From contig JAFYVN010000003.1 of NCBI GenBank assembly GCA_017549105.1, positions 1 through 42,652 of the forward strand: DNA of 42,652 nucleotides, read 5' to 3'. Positions 2,344 through 24,993 of the stretch are shown here, one piece after another. The notes beneath the pieces were generated by a model. The model saw only the letters and a list, made by a program, of their open reading frames with translations. It was not told the DNA's origin and ran no database searches. The stretch comes from Clostridia bacterium (GTDB lineage Bacteria > Bacillota > Clostridia > Oscillospirales > Acutalibacteraceae). The position numbers and the translations under genes were made by a program. Position 1 is the first letter of the stretch; each line of letters starts with the position of its first letter.

Positions 2344-5300
2344 TTATTCATAATCGTCCTCCGAGGTTTCAAAGTCAAAACCGAAATCTTCAACGTCCAT
2401 TTCTTCCGGCATACCGAAATCGTCATCATCTTCGAAGCCTCTGATGAAGATGTCGTTATCTTCACTCTCTTCGTCAATCATGAACTCGTCGCTGCCTTCA
2501 GCGTCGTTGACCTGCTGGAATGCCTTATCATCGGAAACAAATCCGACATCGTCATTATCAAATGACTGGCGCAGATCGATTTCTTCGTCGTTTTCGTCGA
2601 GAACCTTAATGTCAAGAGCAAGAGCCTGGAGTTCCTTGACAAGAACCTTGAATGATTCGGGAACACCGGGAGTGGGAACGTTGTTGCCCTTAACGATAGC
2701 TTCGTATGTCTTGACTCTTCCCACAACGTCGTCTGACTTAACGGTGAGAATTTCCTGGAGTGTATAGGCTGCGCCGTAAGCTTCGAGCGCCCAAACTTCC
2801 ATTTCACCGAAACGCTGACCGCCGAACTGAGCTTTACCGCCCAGAGGCTGCTGAGTAACGAGTGAGTAGGGACCTGTTGAACGGGCATGAATCTTATCGT
2901 CAACCAGATGGTGAAGCTTGAGGTAATACATAACACCGACTGTTACGGGGTTATCAAACTTTCTGCCAGTACGTCCGTCGGTGAGAATTGACTTACAGTC
3001 GAGGCGGAGCTGAGGAACGGTTGAGGGATCAAATTCAATACCCTTTGCAGCTGCTTCCTTCTCTGCCTTTTCCATTGCAACACGGTTTGCTTCCTTGAAT
3101 GCTTCGGTGATATCATCTTCGTGTGCACCGTCAAATACGGGTGTCATAACGTTGATGCCGAGATTTCTTGCAGCAAAGCCGAGGTGAACCTCGAGAACCT
3201 GACCGATGTTCATTCGGGAGGGAACGCCGAGGGGGTTAAGAACGATATCAAGAGGAGTACCATCGGGAAGGAAGGGCATATCTTCCTGGGGAAGAATTCT
3301 TGAAACAACACCCTTGTTACCGTGACGGCCGGCCATCTTATCGCCGACAGAAAGCTTACGCTTCTGAGCGATGTAGCAGCGTACTACCTTGTTAACGCCG
3401 GGTGAAAGTTCATCACTGTTTTCTCTTGTGAAAACTTCAACGTTAACAACGATACCGTATTCACCGTGGGGAACTTTGAGAGAGGTATCTCTGACTTCCT
3501 TTGCCTTTTCACCGAAGATTGCACGGAGAAGTCTTTCTTCAGCTGTAAGCTCGGTTTCGCCCTTGGGAGTAACCTTACCTACAAGGATATCGCCCGAGTG
3601 AACCTCTGCACCGATTCTGATAATTCCTCGCTCGTCAAGGTTGCCGAGTGCATCCTCGCCGACGTTGGGAATATCTCTTGTGATTTCTTCGGGACCAAGC
3701 TTGGTATCTCTTGCTTCGGTCTCGTATTCTTCAATGTGAACTGATGTGTAAACATCGTCACGGACAAGTTTTTCGTTGATAAGAACGGCGTCTTCGTAGT
3801 TGTAGCCTTCCCATGTCATGAAGCCTACGAGAGCGTTCTTGCCAAGGCTGATTTCGCCGTGGTCGGTTGCGGGACCGTCAGCAATAACTTCGCCTTTTTC
3901 AACTCTCTGGCCTGCAGAAACGATGGGACGCTGGTTGGTACAAGTGCCCTGGTTTGAACGCATAAACTTGATGAGTTCATAATAGTCGCTTGTGCCGTCG
4001 TCGTTCTTGATGATGATGTTGTCTGCGCTGACTTTTGCAACGGTACCTGCCTGCTTTGCAAGGACTGTTACGCCCGAGTCAACCGCTGCCTTATATTCCA
4101 TACCTGTACCAACGATGGGGGCGCAGGTCTTGAGCAGAGGAACAGCCTGACGCTGCATGTTCGAACCCATAAGAGCACGGTTTGCGTCGTCGTTTTCAAG
4201 GAAAGGAATCATTGCGGTAGCAACCGAAACAACCATCTTGGGTGAGATATCCATATAATCAACTCGTGTGCGGTCGATTTCAATGAATTCGTCTCTGTGT
4301 CTTGCAGTGATCTTCTGTCTAACGAAGCAGTTGTTCTCGTCAAGAGCTTCGTTAGCCTGAGCAACGATGAAATCGTCCTCAGTGTCTGCTGTCATATATT
4401 CAACTTCATCGAGGACTCTGCCTGTTTCCTTATCAATCTTTCTGTAAGGAGTTTCGATAAAGCCGTATTCATTAATCTTTGCGAAAGTTGCAAGGTAGGA
4501 GATAAGACCGATGTTGGGACCTTCGGGAGTTTCGATGGGACACATTCTGCCGTAGTGAGAATAGTGAACGTCTCGAACTTCGAAACCAGCTCTGTCTCGT
4601 GAAAGACCGCCGGGACCGAGGGCTGAAAGACGGCGCTTATGAGTAAGCTCTGCAAGGGGGTTGGTCTGGTCCATGAACTGTGAAAGGGGTGATGAACCGA
4701 AGAACTCTTTGATAGCAACCATAACGGGGCGGATATTGATAAGAGTCTGAGGAGTAATCTTATCTTCGTCCTCCTGAGCCTGGATAGCCATTCTCTCGCG
4801 AACTACTCTTTCCATTCTTGCAAGACCGATTCTGAACTGATTCTGAAGAAGTTCGCCGACGGAGCGGATTCTTCTGTTGCCCAGATGGTCGATATCGTCA
4901 ACGTTACCTACATGCTTGGTGAGGCAGTTGACATAGTTGACGGATGCGAAGATATCGTCAACGATAATGTGCTTGGGAATAAGGTCGTCGCAACGCTCTG
5001 CCATCTCTGCAAGAAGAGCAGCCTTGTCGTCGCCGCACTTCTCGATAACTTCGTGAAGAACCGAGTAGCGAACCTTTTCGTTGATGCCGATTGCTTCAAG
5101 CTCTTCCTTCGAGATTTCAACAGGAAGAATTGCATCGGCATAAACCATGCCGTTTGAGATAACGAACAGCTCACTGCCGTCCTCGCAGGCAACAACAACC
5201 TTCATAACGCCTGCATTCTCTATTTCGAGAGCCTTCTGCTTTGTAAGAACCTCACCGGGTTCTGCAAGGAACTCACCTGTGTATTCGGAAATAACGGGCT

Positions 5301-15262: not shown

Positions 15263-15288
15263 GGGACGGCACAGAGGCCGTCCCCTAC
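15263..15288 (-). repeat. REP element, GTAG family, copy 1
   Basis: Minus strand: GTAG, then GGGACGGC, a 6-nt loop, and GCCGTCCC. It is identical to the copy inside the RAYT gene (23565-23590) and differs by one loop base from the copy at 23719-23744. It sits in the spacer between the membrane-protein gene and hflX, a typical REP location. Confidence 0.85.
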
Positions 15289-20682: not shown

Positions 20683-20797
20683 TGAAAAATTTAAAATGAA
20701 TAATGAAAAATTAAGGAAGGGCTCCGCCCTTACCCGATTATATAATCCGGAGCGAAGCGACCCTTAATTATTCACTTTTCACTATTCATTATTCATT
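20683..20797. repeat. MITE-like palindromic repeat at the gpmI 3' end
   Basis: About 115 bp with AT-rich inverted ends (AATGAATAATGAA ... AATTAAGG on the left, and the inverted CCTTAATTATTCA ... ATTCATTATTCATT on the right). These surround a GC-rich centre with the small hairpin AAGGGC/GCCCTT and GGAGCGAAGCGAC. It encodes nothing. The gpmI stop codon lies inside its right end. Whether it is mobile cannot be seen from one copy. Confidence 0.55.
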
Positions 20798-22313
20798 TAA
20801 TCAGAAGGCTTTCGCCTGTCATCTGTGCAGGCTGTTCGATGCCCATAATGTCGAGCATAGTGGGAGCGATGTCGCAGAGCTTGCCACCGTTTTCCTTGAG
20901 CTTGCAGTCGTGACCGACAACAACGAAGGGAACGGGATTTGTTGTGTGAGCGGTGAAGGGAGAACCGTCGGGCTCATACATCTTGTCTGCGTTACCGTGG
21001 TCAGCAGTGATAAGCATTACACCGCCCTTTGCAGAAACAGCATCGCAAATCTTGCCAACGCAGGTGTCAACTGCTTCAACAGCAGCAACAGCAGCCTCAA
21101 ATACACCTGTGTGACCAACCATATCGCAGTTAGCGTAGTTGAGAATGATTACATCATACTTATCTGTGCCGATTGCTTCGAGAAGCTTATCTGTAACTTC
21201 GTAAGCGCTCATTTCGGGCTGAAGATCATAAGTTGCAACAGCAGGTGACTTAACAAGAATTCTATCCTCACCGTCATACTGCTTTTCAACACCGCCGTTA
21301 AAGAAGAATGTTACATGAGCATACTTCTCTGTTTCAGCGATTCTGAGCTGAGTCATACCCTTCTGTGAAAGGAACTCGCCGAATGTGTTGTCAAGAGTCT
21401 GAGGCTTGAATGCAACGTGAACGTTGGGCATTGTTGCATCATACTGAGTCATACATACATAGTAGAGATTCTTGAGCTGTTCACGCTCAAAACCGCTGAA
21501 TTCGCCATCAACAAAAGCTCTTGTAATTTCTCTTGCTCTGTCGGGTCGGAAGTTGAAGAAAACAACTGAATCGTTATCGGAAATGGGCTGTGCATCCTTT
21601 GAAACAGCAGGAACAATAAATTCGTCTGTAACATCGTTCTTATATGATTCTTCAATCATTTCGCAGCCGCAGTCGAACTTAACGCCTTCGCACTTTGTCA
21701 TAGCATCGTATGCCTTGACAACTCTTTCCCAGCGGTTGTCTCTGTCCATTGCATAGTATCTGCCCATAATTGTTGCAATCTTGCCTGTGCCGATTTCTGC
21801 AAGATTCTTATAAAGGTCAGCAACGAAATCCTTACCCGATGTGGGAGGAACATCTCTGCCGTCCATAAGGCAATGAACAAAAACTTTTTCAAGTCCCATA
21901 TCCTTTGCCATTTTAACAATTCCATAAAGGTGAGTATTGTGGCTGTGAACACCGCCGTCTGAAAGAAGACCCATAAGGTGGAGAGCGGAATTATTCTTTT
22001 TGCAGTTTTCCACTGCGCCCACAAGAGCTTCATTCTCAAAGAAATCGCCGTCATTGATTGACTTTGTGATTCTTGTAAGTTCCTGGTAAACAACACGGCC
22101 TGCACCGATATTGGTGTGACCTACTTCGCTGTTACCCATCTGACCGTCGGGAAGACCTACATCCATACCCGAAGCACCGATATATGTCATCGGATTTTCT
22201 GCCATAATTTTATCAAGATTAGGAGTTTTAGCAGCAACAATTGCGTTACCGTAATCGCTGTCGTTTCTGCCGAAACCGTCCATAATGCAAAGAAGAACAG
22301 GTTTTTTGCTCAT
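20793..22313 (-). CDS. gpmI: 2,3-bisphosphoglycerate-independent phosphoglycerate mutase
   Basis: A 506-residue alkaline-phosphatase-superfamily enzyme interconverting 3- and 2-phosphoglycerate in glycolysis. The metal-binding start (PVLLCIMDGFGRND), the phosphoserine site (GQMGNSEVGHTNIGAG) and the C-terminal metal motif (LITADHGNAD) are all present. Length is normal (about 510). The ATG at 22313 is preceded by AAAGGAAAG. The longer frame to 22415 runs through REP sequences and is rejected. It is the last gene of the pgk-RAYT-tpiA-gpmI operon. The stop codon TGA falls in the terminal sequence of the MITE-like repeat. Confidence 0.97.
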   Translation of the reverse strand: MSKKPVLLCIMDGFGRNDSDYGNAIVAAKTPNLDKIMAENPMTYIGASGMDVGLPDGQMGNSEVGHTNIGAGRVVYQELTRITKSINDGDFFENEALVGAVENCKKNNSALHLMGLLSDGGVHSHNTHLYGIVKMAKDMGLEKVFVHCLMDGRDVPPTSGKDFVADLYKNLAEIGTGKIATIMGRYYAMDRDNRWERVVKAYDAMTKCEGVKFDCGCEMIEESYKNDVTDEFIVPAVSKDAQPISDNDSVVFFNFRPDRAREITRAFVDGEFSGFEREQLKNLYYVCMTQYDATMPNVHVAFKPQTLDNTFGEFLSQKGMTQLRIAETEKYAHVTFFFNGGVEKQYDGEDRILVKSPAVATYDLQPEMSAYEVTDKLLEAIGTDKYDVIILNYANCDMVGHTGVFEAAVAAVEAVDTCVGKICDAVSAKGGVMLITADHGNADKMYEPDGSPFTAHTTNPVPFVVVGHDCKLKENGGKLCDIAPTMLDIMGIEQPAQMTGESLLIK

Positions 22314-22341
22314 AATAAACTTTCCTTTCGTCATTTTATAC

Positions 22342-22367
22342 GGAACGTCGGGGACGACGTTCCCTAC
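22342..22367 (-). repeat. REP element, second stem type, copy a
   Basis: Minus strand: GTAG, then GGAACGTCG, loop TCCC, CGACGTTCC. It has the same architecture as the GTAG/GGGACGGC family but a different 9-bp stem. It is followed 9 bp later by an inverted partner. Confidence 0.75.
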
Positions 22368-22376
22368 TGAATTTTT

Positions 22377-22402
22377 GCAGGGAACGCTGTCCTCAGCGTT
22401 CC
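22377..22402 (+). repeat. REP element, second stem type, copy b
   Basis: Plus strand: GCAG (variant of GTAG), then GGAACGCTG, loop TCCT, CAGCGTTCC. It forms an inverted pair with the 22342-22367 copy, giving a BIME-like unit in the tpiA-gpmI spacer. Confidence 0.7.
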
Positions 22403-22418
22403 GTAACATAAACACACA

Positions 22419-22455: not shown

Positions 22456-23223
22456 TTATTTTGAAGCCGCTGCAACGATTGCTGCAAACTTCTCTGCAAC
22501 AAGTGATGCACCGCCGATGAGACCGCCGTCAACATCGTACTGAGCAAGAAGCTCTGCTGCGTTTGCATCGTTCATTGAACCGCCGTACTGGATAACAAAC
22601 TTATCAGCAGCATCCTTGTTGTAAAGCTCTGCGATAAGAGCGCGGATAACTGCGCAAACTTCGTTAGCCTGCTCGGGAGTAGCGGTAAGACCTGTGCCGA
22701 TAGCCCAAACGGGTTCGTAAGCAATGATGATATTTGCAAGTTCAGCTTCGGATACGCCTGAAAGAGCAACCTTTGTCTGAAGTCTTACAACCTCTGCTGT
22801 GATGCCGAGTTCTCTTTCCTTGAGAACTTCACCAACGCAAAGGATAACCTTGAGACCTGCATTAAGAGCAGCTCTTACACGGTCACGGACTGTTTCGTCT
22901 GTTTCACCGAAATACTGTCTTCTTTCGGAGTGACCGATGATAACATAGGGAACGCCTGCAGCCTTGAGCATTTCAGCTGAAACTTCGCCGGTGAATGCGC
23001 CTTTTTCTGCCCAGTGGCAGTTCTCTGCACCGATCATGATGTTTGAGCCTGCTGCAGCTTCCATAGCTGCATAGAGGTCGATATAGGGAGCGCAGATAAC
23101 AACGTCGCAATCAGCATCAGCAACGAGGGGCTTCATAGCTTCGATGAGAGCCTTTGTCTGCTCGGGAGTGTTGTTCATTTTCCAGTTGCCTGCGATAACA
23201 GGTCTGCGGAGTGACTTATCCAT
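22456..23223 (-). CDS. tpiA: Triosephosphate isomerase
   Basis: A 255-residue TIM-barrel isomerase interconverting dihydroxyacetone phosphate and glyceraldehyde 3-phosphate. The substrate-binding Lys (AGNWKMN), catalytic His (VIIGHSERR) and catalytic Glu (IAYEPVWAIGTG) are visible. C-terminal GGSMNDANA and GGLIGGASL fit the phosphate-binding loops. Length is normal. The ATG at 23223 follows AAAGGATG, and this ribosome binding site lies inside the 3' end of the upstream RAYT gene. The two coding regions overlap by 8 bases, so tpiA translation may be coupled to that of the transposase. Confidence 0.97.
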   Translation of the reverse strand: MDKSLRRPVIAGNWKMNNTPEQTKALIEAMKPLVADADCDVVICAPYIDLYAAMEAAAGSNIMIGAENCHWAEKGAFTGEVSAEMLKAAGVPYVIIGHSERRQYFGETDETVRDRVRAALNAGLKVILCVGEVLKERELGITAEVVRLQTKVALSGVSEAELANIIIAYEPVWAIGTGLTATPEQANEVCAVIRALIAELYNKDAADKFVIQYGGSMNDANAAELLAQYDVDGGLIGGASLVAEKFAAIVAAASK

Positions 23224-23704
23224 TCAGATTACATCCTTTCGTCTTTTTTAAATTCCATTTCAACGGATTCTCGTCAATATATTGCCACGTTTCGTCATAG
23301 TCAGCCTGACCACGGATGATGTGGTCGTTATATGACCTTTGCCACAATTCATCCCCGAACGAATTTGCTGTATATGATTTGAATCGTTTTATAATTTCAG
23401 GAATATCAATATCAGTTTTGCCTGCATTTTTATTGCAAATTGAAATCAGTATATGCACATGATCTGGCATAACAGCGTATTTATCAACAGAAACATCGGG
23501 ATAACCGTTAATGTGAAGGATTGATTTTTCAACTGTTTTGCCTATATCCGTCAACTCTGTTTTCGGGACGGCACAGAGGCCGTCCCCTACGATATTACAT
23601 AATATCTGTTCCTTATCTTTTGTGCAAATGGTTATATGATACGCACCGTTCTGTGAATAATCGTACCCTTTTAACCTAAGCTGTTTTCTTTTGAGCAAAC
23701 TCAT
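23216..23704 (-). CDS. REP-associated tyrosine transposase (RAYT, Y1/IS200-like fold)
   Basis: A 162-residue Y1-type HUH transposase of the RAYT group. These are single-copy, domesticated relatives of IS200/IS605 TnpA that act on REP sequences. Seen: GYDYSQNGAYHITICTKDKE at the N-terminus, the HUH motif in VMPDHVHILI (His82, His84), the catalytic-tyrosine candidate Tyr111 in KRFKSYTAN, and the RAYT-type C-terminus LWQRSYNDHIIR. Residues 39-47 are encoded by a complete REP in frame. The gene sits between pgk and tpiA in the glycolytic operon and its stop overlaps the tpiA start. The ATG at 23704 follows AAGGGGA. No terminal repeats of an insertion sequence are seen. Confidence 0.93.
   Translation of the reverse strand: MSLLKRKQLRLKGYDYSQNGAYHITICTKDKEQILCNIVGDGLCAVPKTELTDIGKTVEKSILHINGYPDVSVDKYAVMPDHVHILISICNKNAGKTDIDIPEIIKRFKSYTANSFGDELWQRSYNDHIIRGQADYDETWQYIDENPLKWNLKKTKGCNLNG
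23565..23590 (-). repeat. REP element, GTAG family, copy 2, inside the RAYT coding sequence
   Basis: Minus strand: GTAG, GGGACGGC, loop CTCTGT, GCCGTCCC. It is identical to copy 1. With the next base it forms exactly nine codons (V G D G L C A V P, residues 39-47) in frame in the transposase gene. Confidence 0.9.
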
Positions 23705-23718
23705 TTTTTATTCCCCTT

Positions 23719-23744
23719 GTAGGGGACGGCCTCCGTGCCGTCCC
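23719..23744 (+). repeat. REP element, GTAG family, copy 3, between pgk and RAYT
   Basis: Plus strand: GTAG, GGGACGGC, loop CTCCGT, GCCGTCCC. It differs from copies 1 and 2 by one loop base and lies in inverted orientation to copy 2. Its foot overlaps a second palindrome (CCCCT TGT AGGGG on the plus strand, 23713-23725) that contains the RAYT ribosome binding site. Confidence 0.9.
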
Positions 23745-23756
23745 GAAAGGTCAAAA

Positions 23757-24968
23757 TTACTTATCGTTTACTGCTTCGATACCGGGAAGAGCCTTACCCT
23801 CGAGGAATTCGAGTGAAGCGCCGCCACCGGTTGAGATGTGAGTCATCTTGTCACCAAAACCGAGAGTGTTAACAGCAGCTGCTGAGTCACCACCGCCGAT
23901 GATTGTAACTGCATCTGTTTCAGCAAGAGCCTTAGCAACTGCGATTGTACCTGCTGCAAGAGTGGGGTTCTCGAAAACGCCCATGGGGCCGTTCCAAACA
24001 ACGGTCTTTGCGCTCTGGACTGCGTCTGCATAGAGTTCTGCAGTCTTGGGACCGATGTCAAGGCCTTCCTTGTCAGCGGGAATAGCATCTGCTGCAAAAA
24101 CTTCTGTGTCGATGGGAGCATCGATGGGGTTGGGGAAACCTGCTGCAGTAACAACATCGATGGGAAGAAGGATCTTAACACCCTTTGCATCTGCCTTTGC
24201 AAGCATATCCTTGCAGTAGTCAATCTTGCTTTCGTCGAGGAGTGAGTTACCTACACCGTAGCCCTTTGCAGCAAGGAATGTGTAAGCCATACCGCCACCG
24301 ATGATAAGTGTATCAGCCTTGTTGAGAAGGTTTTCGATAACGTTGAGCTTATCAGCAACCTTTGCACCGCCAAGGATTGTAACGAAGGGTCTTTCGGGAT
24401 CTTCAACAGCGTTGCCGAGATACTTGAGTTCTTTGCCCATAAGATAACCTACAGCTGCTTCTTCAACATAAGCTGTTACGCCTACTGTTGAGCAGTGTGC
24501 TCTGTGAGCTGCGCCGAATGCATCGTTAACATACATTTCGCAGATGCTTGCAAGATCCTTTGAGAAAGCTTCGCCGTTCTTTGTTTCTTCTGCACGGAAA
24601 CGTGTGTTTTCAAGAAGAACAACGTCACCGTCGTTCATAGCAGCAACAGCAGCCTTTGCATTTTCGCCTACTACTGTATCGTCAGCTGCAAAAACAACTT
24701 CCTTGCCGAGCTTCTCGCTGAGTCTCTTTGCAACGGGAGCAAGTGAGAACTTTGCTTCGGGGCCGTTCTTGGGCTTGCCGAGATGTGAGCAAAGGATAAC
24801 CTTTGCGCCGTCATTTATGAGTTTCTGAATTGTGGGAAGAGCTGCATTGATTCTGTTTTCGTCTGTGATAACGCCTTCCTTGAGGGGAACGTTAAAGTCG
24901 CAACGAACAAGCACCTTCTTGCCCTTTGCATTGATGTCGTCAACTGTCTTTTTGTTAAGTAAGCTCAT
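23757..24968 (-). CDS. pgk: Phosphoglycerate kinase
   Basis: A 403-residue phosphoglycerate kinase, making ATP from 1,3-bisphosphoglycerate and ADP. The N-terminal substrate site ([16 protein letters not shown]), the SHLGKPKNG block, [10 protein letters not shown], and the C-terminal nucleotide site ([20 protein letters not shown]) are present. The length is slightly above 395. The ATG at 24968 is preceded by AAAGGA. An upstream in-frame TTG is not used. It is the first gene of the operon that continues into the RAYT, tpiA and gpmI. A glyceraldehyde-3-phosphate dehydrogenase gene is not next to it. Confidence 0.98.
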
Positions 24969-24993
24969 TTTCTTCAATCCTTTCAGAATTTTT

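Follow-up and report, generated by a model that had tools for sequence, protein, structure and literature searches.

REP palindromes inside RAYT-like transposase genes of a clostridial family: a site ahead of the HUH codons and its inverted partners

The window analysed here is a stretch of 42,652 nucleotides from a Clostridia bacterium, whose assembly (1.24 Mb, 63.9% complete) has 'Clostridia bacterium' MAGs as nearest named relatives. Between putative pgk and tpi genes it contains an ORF (Table 1) whose product scores 36.2 bits against PF01797 (Y1_Tnp; cut-off 23) in a Pfam search and has 4ER8, the E. coli TnpA-REP, as its closest solved structure. The protein presents the features of the Y1_Tnp fold (HUH and a single catalytic tyrosine, then Y-x-x-x-N-P), and residues H82, H84, Y142 and N146 are invariant across 27 aligned proteins. 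These data support the assignment of the gene, already made in the initial annotation, as a putative RAYT-like Y1 transposase, although the top-scoring model, NCBIfam NF047646 (REP-associated tyrosine transposase), gives 63.1 bits, under its curated cut-off of 80, and for that reason we use the term RAYT-like.

Table 1. Genes and repeat elements of the window considered in this work (positions are those of the whole stretch)
Feature	Position	Strand	Remarks
RAYT/TnpA-REP-like gene	23216..23704	-	162-aa ORF, Pfam Y1_Tnp
HUH (DHVH) codons	~23453-23461	-	within the RAYT-like gene
Tyr motif YIDENP, Tyr142	~23279-23281	-	within the RAYT-like gene
In-gene REP, site A	23565..23590	-	GTAG foot, 8-bp stem, 6-nt loop; codons 39-47
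Upstream REP copy	23719..23744	+	one mismatch; opposite orientation to the in-gene copy
30-nt inverted repeat	23561..23748		arms 23561-23590 and 23719-23748; two REPs and shared GAAA tails
Extragenic REP	15263..15288	-	identical to the in-gene copy
Putative pgk	23757..24977	-	precedes the RAYT-like gene, same strand; named by reading the protein
Putative tpi	22456..23223	-	start overlaps the RAYT-like stop; named by reading the protein
Putative gpmI	20793-22415	-	after tpi; named by reading the protein
REP of another stem family (GTAGGGAACGTC...GACGTTCC)	22342..22367	-	ahead of gpmI; stem-finder scan

Within this gene lies a complete 26-bp REP, GTAGGGGACGGCCTCTGTGCCGTCCC, which encodes VGDGLCAVP in frame (the nine codons span 23564-23590) and has a GTAG foot immediately 5' of a short GC-rich hairpin, as expected for a GTAG-type REP; the predicted fold of the 8-bp stem has -9.8 kcal/mol as DNA. 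Coordinates and translation confirm the in-frame position claimed by the initial annotation, as well as the identity with the extragenic copy. Both copies that it named are real; it overlooked a third one, inverted and upstream of the gene, which ends just before the likely Shine-Dalgarno sequence. The arms of the resulting inverted repeat are 97% complementary and 128 nt apart, so that one member of the REP pair is inside the gene and the other upstream, while there is no REP of that type just downstream and none between the HUH and tyrosine codons, a position that we call site B. The REP of the other stem family falls within an N-terminal extension that the gpmI ORF has if a GTG start is assumed; translation probably begins at a later ATG (MSKKPVLL), which would leave this REP intergenic.

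Chance does not account for these palindromes. The pattern GTAGGGGACGGC occurs six times in the window with at most two mismatches (three exact), against 0.86 expected, and none of 100 shuffles reached six. With one stem-finder run on the source genome (1,239,523 bases), 30 palindromes of several stem families were found at 155 GTAGGG feet, whereas ten control feet gave 0, 0, 0, 0, 1, 1, 1, 3, 6 and 17, the last being TAGGGG, which overlaps the real foot. The GTAG REP family is thus present elsewhere in the genome, as had been proposed, with three copies only of the strict pattern (1.24 Mb, 63.9% complete), and five further stem variants sharing the CTC-N-GTG loop region, which is found in eight copies in all. 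All three RAYT matches of the source genome have a REP at the same codons, and few of the remaining 27 palindromes are in ORFs of at least 120 amino acids, those being mostly at ORF ends or in doubtful ORFs.

We surveyed RAYT loci from two sources, 62 loci of named genomes and the 74 of 300 family genomes with a match at E <= 1e-15. For the latter, 60 regions were fetched, some being extra copies in the same genomes, and 14 more were added; from about 140 family match rows, 30 were used as loci together with these 74 further regions, the rest being mostly fragments. From 163 RAYT-like ORFs we retained 134, leaving aside 29 with no first strand or HUH, with a short C-terminus or duplicated; four loci (L063, L064, L066 and L068) had no ORF and were not counted. 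The REP finder demanded a stem of at least 7 with at most one mismatch, and therefore scored decayed palindromes as absent (by eye, about eleven at site A: L035, L045, L053, L075, L085, L088, L095, L107, L108, L140 and L145), as was also done for L234, which has masked bases at the site.

Of the 88 family genes, 64 have a REP at the position of the window's in-gene copy (site A), as do 18 of the 52 genes of the wider named set, and the opposite orientation was never found. After merging, the palindrome is present in 85 of the 134 genes (84 with a GTAG foot and one with GTGG, a foot found at site A of L050, from Flavobacteriaceae), and all 85 have the same orientation, although they comprise 57 sequences and 41 stem arms. 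At site B, a REP facing opposite to A is found in 100 of the 134 genes and one facing as A in 20. By occupancy of the two sites, 73 genes have both, 12 have A only, 30 have B only and 19 have none. In a phylum sample, 20 of 398 genomes, source genome included, had a match at E <= 1e-12; among the 23 loci examined, site A is intact in L238, from the same order, and by eye looks decayed in L241 and L244, and several loci have site B. Site A is therefore largely a trait of this family and some relatives. Six loci from outside the family (L028, L038, L039, L042, L051 and L062) have two outward REPs at site B within about 130 nt, in-gene pairs that are REPIN-like, with the stems of the two members differing in most.

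The initial annotation saw one intergenic copy that had landed in one gene, in what it took for a variable loop between the N-terminal strand and the HUH motif. The location stood, since 4ER8 has no residues there in the alignment, and site A would correspond to a tolerant loop of the Y1 domain, after its first strand and before its first helix. The single landing did not: with site A occupied in most family genes by lineage-specific sequences, the element has the appearance of an in-gene REP that is old and has been maintained. The nine codons measure its coding extent and are not a demonstrated insertion length, given that distant homologues without a REP are about six codons shorter at the site, a few being shorter still (counted by eye). 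None of the relatives compared offers a clean empty site lacking exactly nine codons; the closest palindrome-less genes, L139 and L147 (75-80% identical to L148), have the same length there and an eroded palindrome. A recent single insertion was therefore rejected. The same residues conserved in genomes devoid of REPs were not seen either, the nearest case being again L139 and L147, in which the peptide is partly kept and the palindrome lost, with a REP of the same type and orientation as site A upstream instead. Overall, that interpretation is partly supported.

It is the DNA rather than the peptide that is conserved at site A, since L094 and L104, whose proteins are 63% identical, have an identical 23-nt REP there in two reading frames. 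Stem pairing is mostly kept as the REPs diverge. When A and B of the same gene were compared with no stem demanded (81 genes, one set aside), 34 stem pairs had changed on both sides and still paired and three had changed on one side and still paired, against 18 changes that break pairing; 568 pairs were the same and paired, and 25 the same and unpaired. The corresponding comparison using the stem finder, which is biased towards the paired result, gave 29 versus 4. The both-side changes fall at stem position 4 in 20 of the 34 cases, which hints that this pair may not be read in sequence.

The two in-gene REPs change together. Among 74 genes, the mean edit distance between A and B is 1.69 within a gene and 7.95 across genes, and the observed sum of edits is 125, the lowest of 10,000 permutations being 498. 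The extent of change at the two sites is correlated over 36 non-overlapping nearest-neighbour pairs (Spearman 0.77, or 0.67 when protein identity is taken into account), with at least five edits at both sites in 16 pairs, at one only in 2 and at neither in 17, and one pair in between. With nearest relatives of 40-50% identity, a gene's own B is nearer to its A than the relative's A in 69 of 73 cases (2 ties, 2 farther), with those of 50-60% in 52 of 70 (7 ties, 11 farther), with those of 60-80% in 21 of 43 (8 ties, 14 farther) and with those of 80-95% in 3 of 10 (1 tie), the relative's A being nearer in the other 6, which indicates that copying between A and B is not constant. The two sites are thus slow to equalise, and over long times both shift to the same new type. 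Four genes have A and B at least five edits apart (L073, L077, L082 and L116); L085, a relative of L073, has a B of the same odd type and a decaying A.

REPs outside the genes were also considered, using the 124 genes with 400 nt on both sides and scoring GTAGG REPs within 400 nt, with relatedness ignored. A flanking REP was found in 9 of 68 genes with both A and B, in 26 of 36 with one in-gene REP (including 12 of the 12 with A only) and in 4 of 20 with none; the family set gave 9 of 55, 12 of 16 and 3 of 10, respectively. The difference between one and both (p 2.3e-9; family 2.2e-5), again ignoring relatedness, indicates that a single in-gene REP usually has a flank partner and that genes with two inside seldom do. 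Genes with no in-gene REP do not differ from those with both (p 0.48; family 0.38, relatedness ignored) and are also mostly without flanking REPs; the plain claim that in-gene REPs replace flanking ones was therefore cut back to the one-versus-two comparison. Half of the 16 genes with neither in-gene nor flanking REP show a decayed site-A palindrome, and L036, L050 and L052, counted as empty, have REPs missed by the foot or orientation rule. With relatedness uncorrected, the tests of site A against upstream REPs sharing its orientation (p 0.012) and of site B against downstream REPs sharing its orientation (p 0.00064) came out as expected, whereas those of site A against any upstream (p 0.09) or any downstream REP (p 0.36) were not significant.

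In 21 genes, the extragenic REPs of a gene's own locus are 4.38 edits from its site A, against 7.89 when permuted (lowest of 2000 permutations, 6.24). Exact copies of four REP types were counted in 74 genomes, reaching 81 in one genome (G285), with no copies of their reversed control patterns. Copies outside RAYT genes were present in 15 of 21 carrier and 42 of 275 non-carrier cases (hand-counted), bearing in mind that in some non-carriers, as G171, there is an unfetched RAYT of the type, or such a gene may be absent from the draft. One of these types has 81, 28 and 37 exact copies in G285, G258 and G015, respectively; the single RAYT match of G285 carries a different REP type, so that the enzyme for these 81 copies is absent from the draft or else has diverged or been lost.

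At the pgk-tpi junction, a RAYT gene is present in six of 29 congeneric loci (L261-L289), in three groups with three REP types: the window type (L261 and L262), CGACCTGYGGTCG (L268 and L270) and CGAACTGYGTTCG (L275 and L277, nearly identical to each other). The last four have both in-gene REPs and no further REP in the gap between pgk and tpi. Six loci with pgk and tpi 96-99% identical to those of the window (L263-L267 and L269) have a gap of 74-143 nt and no RAYT, and in the 506-nt gap of L273, which contains a REP, a search at E <= 1e-6 found no RAYT. This junction thus gains, loses or exchanges RAYT genes. The RAYT of L032, a locus with the layout of L268, occupies the same slot as that of the window; by eye, the DNA of the two genes is far more alike towards the end than in the earlier part, which points to recombination inside RAYT genes.

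An E. coli RAYT is reported to recognise single-stranded REP DNA and to cut at GTAG (Di Nocera 2013, PMC3733652). We hypothesize that the encoded RAYT has the in-gene REP as its cognate site, placed inside the ORF in a tolerant loop, and that a cognate REP pair lying partly or wholly within the ORF keeps enzyme and substrate linked, a reading to which we give a probability of about 0.55. Most RAYTs in this clostridial group have an inverted in-gene pair, one member on each side of the HUH codons, and many others, the window gene included, have one REP inside and one at the flank. With the site inside the gene, enzyme and substrate would not be parted by transfer, replacement or loss of the flanks, and a RAYT drifting in specificity could keep its site with it, provided that the REP is renewed by exchange or template switching. 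Accepting this, the window RAYT would bind or cut its in-gene REP, linkage would be the reason why in-gene copies are kept, and the likeness of A and B may arise by RAYT-mediated exchange or template switching. The window gene itself departs from the common layout, as it has no site B and its REP pair faces inward.

REPs might instead be tolerated passengers, inserting often in or near RAYT genes and surviving in two permissive loops, with the upkeep of the palindromes and the likeness of A and B due to template switching between inverted repeats and not to functional selection. Template switching does perfect quasi-palindromes, both loops are length-variable by protein comparison, and genes with no in-gene REP mostly have no flanking REPs as well; moreover, REPs in unrelated genes are already in print (PMC3733652). 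Passengers would not be expected to show a single orientation in 85 of 85 cases, nor to occupy every RAYT gene of the source genome when the other 27 palindromes are rarely within long ORFs. Furthermore, the palindrome erodes where there is a flanking REP (L139 and L147) or a B of changed type (L085), from which it follows that template switching alone does not keep palindromes, and we regard the passenger explanation as rather unlikely.

Autoregulation, in which the in-gene REP acts as an mRNA or DNA element holding down RAYT expression, draws on the layout of the window gene, where a stem of about 30 bp formed with the upstream REP encloses the Shine-Dalgarno sequence and the AUG, inside a glycolytic gene cluster. 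The predicted mRNA fold has -91.4 kcal/mol (z -9.0), and L007 (z -6.5) and L008 (z -11.6) share this layout. In a simple scan no promoter-like site was found on the RAYT strand between pgk and the RAYT gene, the same strand having a single weak match within pgk and two before that gene, and a read-through transcript would therefore hold both arms. However, any comparable inverted repeat folds well in prediction, the inward, start-enclosing pair was seen only in the window gene, L007 and L008 among the genes scanned (L262 resembles L008), and the common A and B pair sits within the coding region, where the start is not enclosed. As an explanation for the in-gene REPs, autoregulation thus seems to us unlikely.

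A different role would be that of a brake at the DNA level, making the RAYT a self-limiting element: since outward-footed cognate REPs flank the HUH codons in most genes, the gene would be open to attack by its own product, and the enzyme would be destroyed if the segment between A and B were removed. HUH is present in 189 of 192 N-to-C units (some loci being counted twice). Two of the exceptions have other features, undetermined bases in the gap (L058) and a broken gene with a stop (L072), and the third, L126, is a relic (about 4280-4640, plus strand) with site A intact, the HUH codons gone and half of B left, so that the segment from A to the middle of B is lost; an intact RAYT with this REP type is found elsewhere on its contig. 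This relic fits a brake; we nevertheless consider such a role distinctly improbable. Ordinary protein conservation, with nine residues that matter to the enzyme and the palindrome as a by-product, is very improbable indeed and was rejected as the cause: 80 of the 85 site-A REPs are in one frame (a bias due in part to the third frame, which would place TAG in frame) and L139 and L147 partly keep the peptide despite palindrome loss, but the two frames of L094 and L104 give different peptides from the same REP, stems changed on both sides remain paired, and homologues outside the group are mostly without the segment.

To our knowledge, it is an open question how a RAYT remains matched to REPs that diverge in sequence. 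Here, an enzyme and its presumed substrate are found in one ORF across dozens of lineages, each with its own REP, which makes the in-gene copy a strong candidate for the cognate REP. In-gene REPs therefore offer ready-made enzyme-substrate pairs for specificity studies, including natural swaps at the pgk-tpi junction, and give clear predictions that would tell apart linkage, regulation and a brake as the reason for keeping them.

In Rickettsia, many proteins contain palindromic repeats as in-frame insertions; the in-gene REPs are likewise in-frame palindromes, but the hosts of the Rickettsia palindromic elements are not the genes of their cognate enzymes. In REPtrons and REPINs, the RAYT gene is described as lying between inverted REPs (Nunvar 2010, PMC2817692), whereas the genes described here have one or both REPs within the ORF. 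GTAG-footed palindromes within ORFs, as that of the window, were described by Di Nocera (2013, PMC3733652), many in DNA synthesis and repair genes, with different REPs near one site in recB of two Xanthomonas species and with some transposase-flanking REPs overlapping the 5' or 3' end of the gene (Figure 8); the sections of that work compared describe no REPs in the middle of a RAYT gene and no fixed in-gene site with a changing REP. A text search of a 2021 TnpA-REP paper for in-gene insertion found no passage.

The closest parallel is subclass 2.4 of the tnpA-REP genes, in which, in addition to flanking REPs, there are REPs within the transposase gene that preserve its reading frame, as a rule between HuH and Y (insertion class beta3:alphaC), a feature given as unique to this subclass, with a peripheral, flexible region suggested, while Table 1 of the same work lists a beta1:alphaA insertion for subclass 2.3 only (Quentin 2018, PMC6006769). 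The window gene was rejected as a member of subclass 2.4, because its motifs (DHVH, WQ and YIDENP) do not all match NH[IFV]H, WQ and YIxNNP and its insertion site differs; in the 134-gene set, HUH is preceded by N in 100 genes and by D in the other 34. Subclass 2.4, in the main text of that paper, generally has its insertion at what we call site B, whereas site A of the present genes precedes HUH, is inverted relative to B and changes together with it. Set against the main-text sections compared, site A, the inverted A and B pair with its co-change and the pattern of one REP inside and one outside appear to be new.
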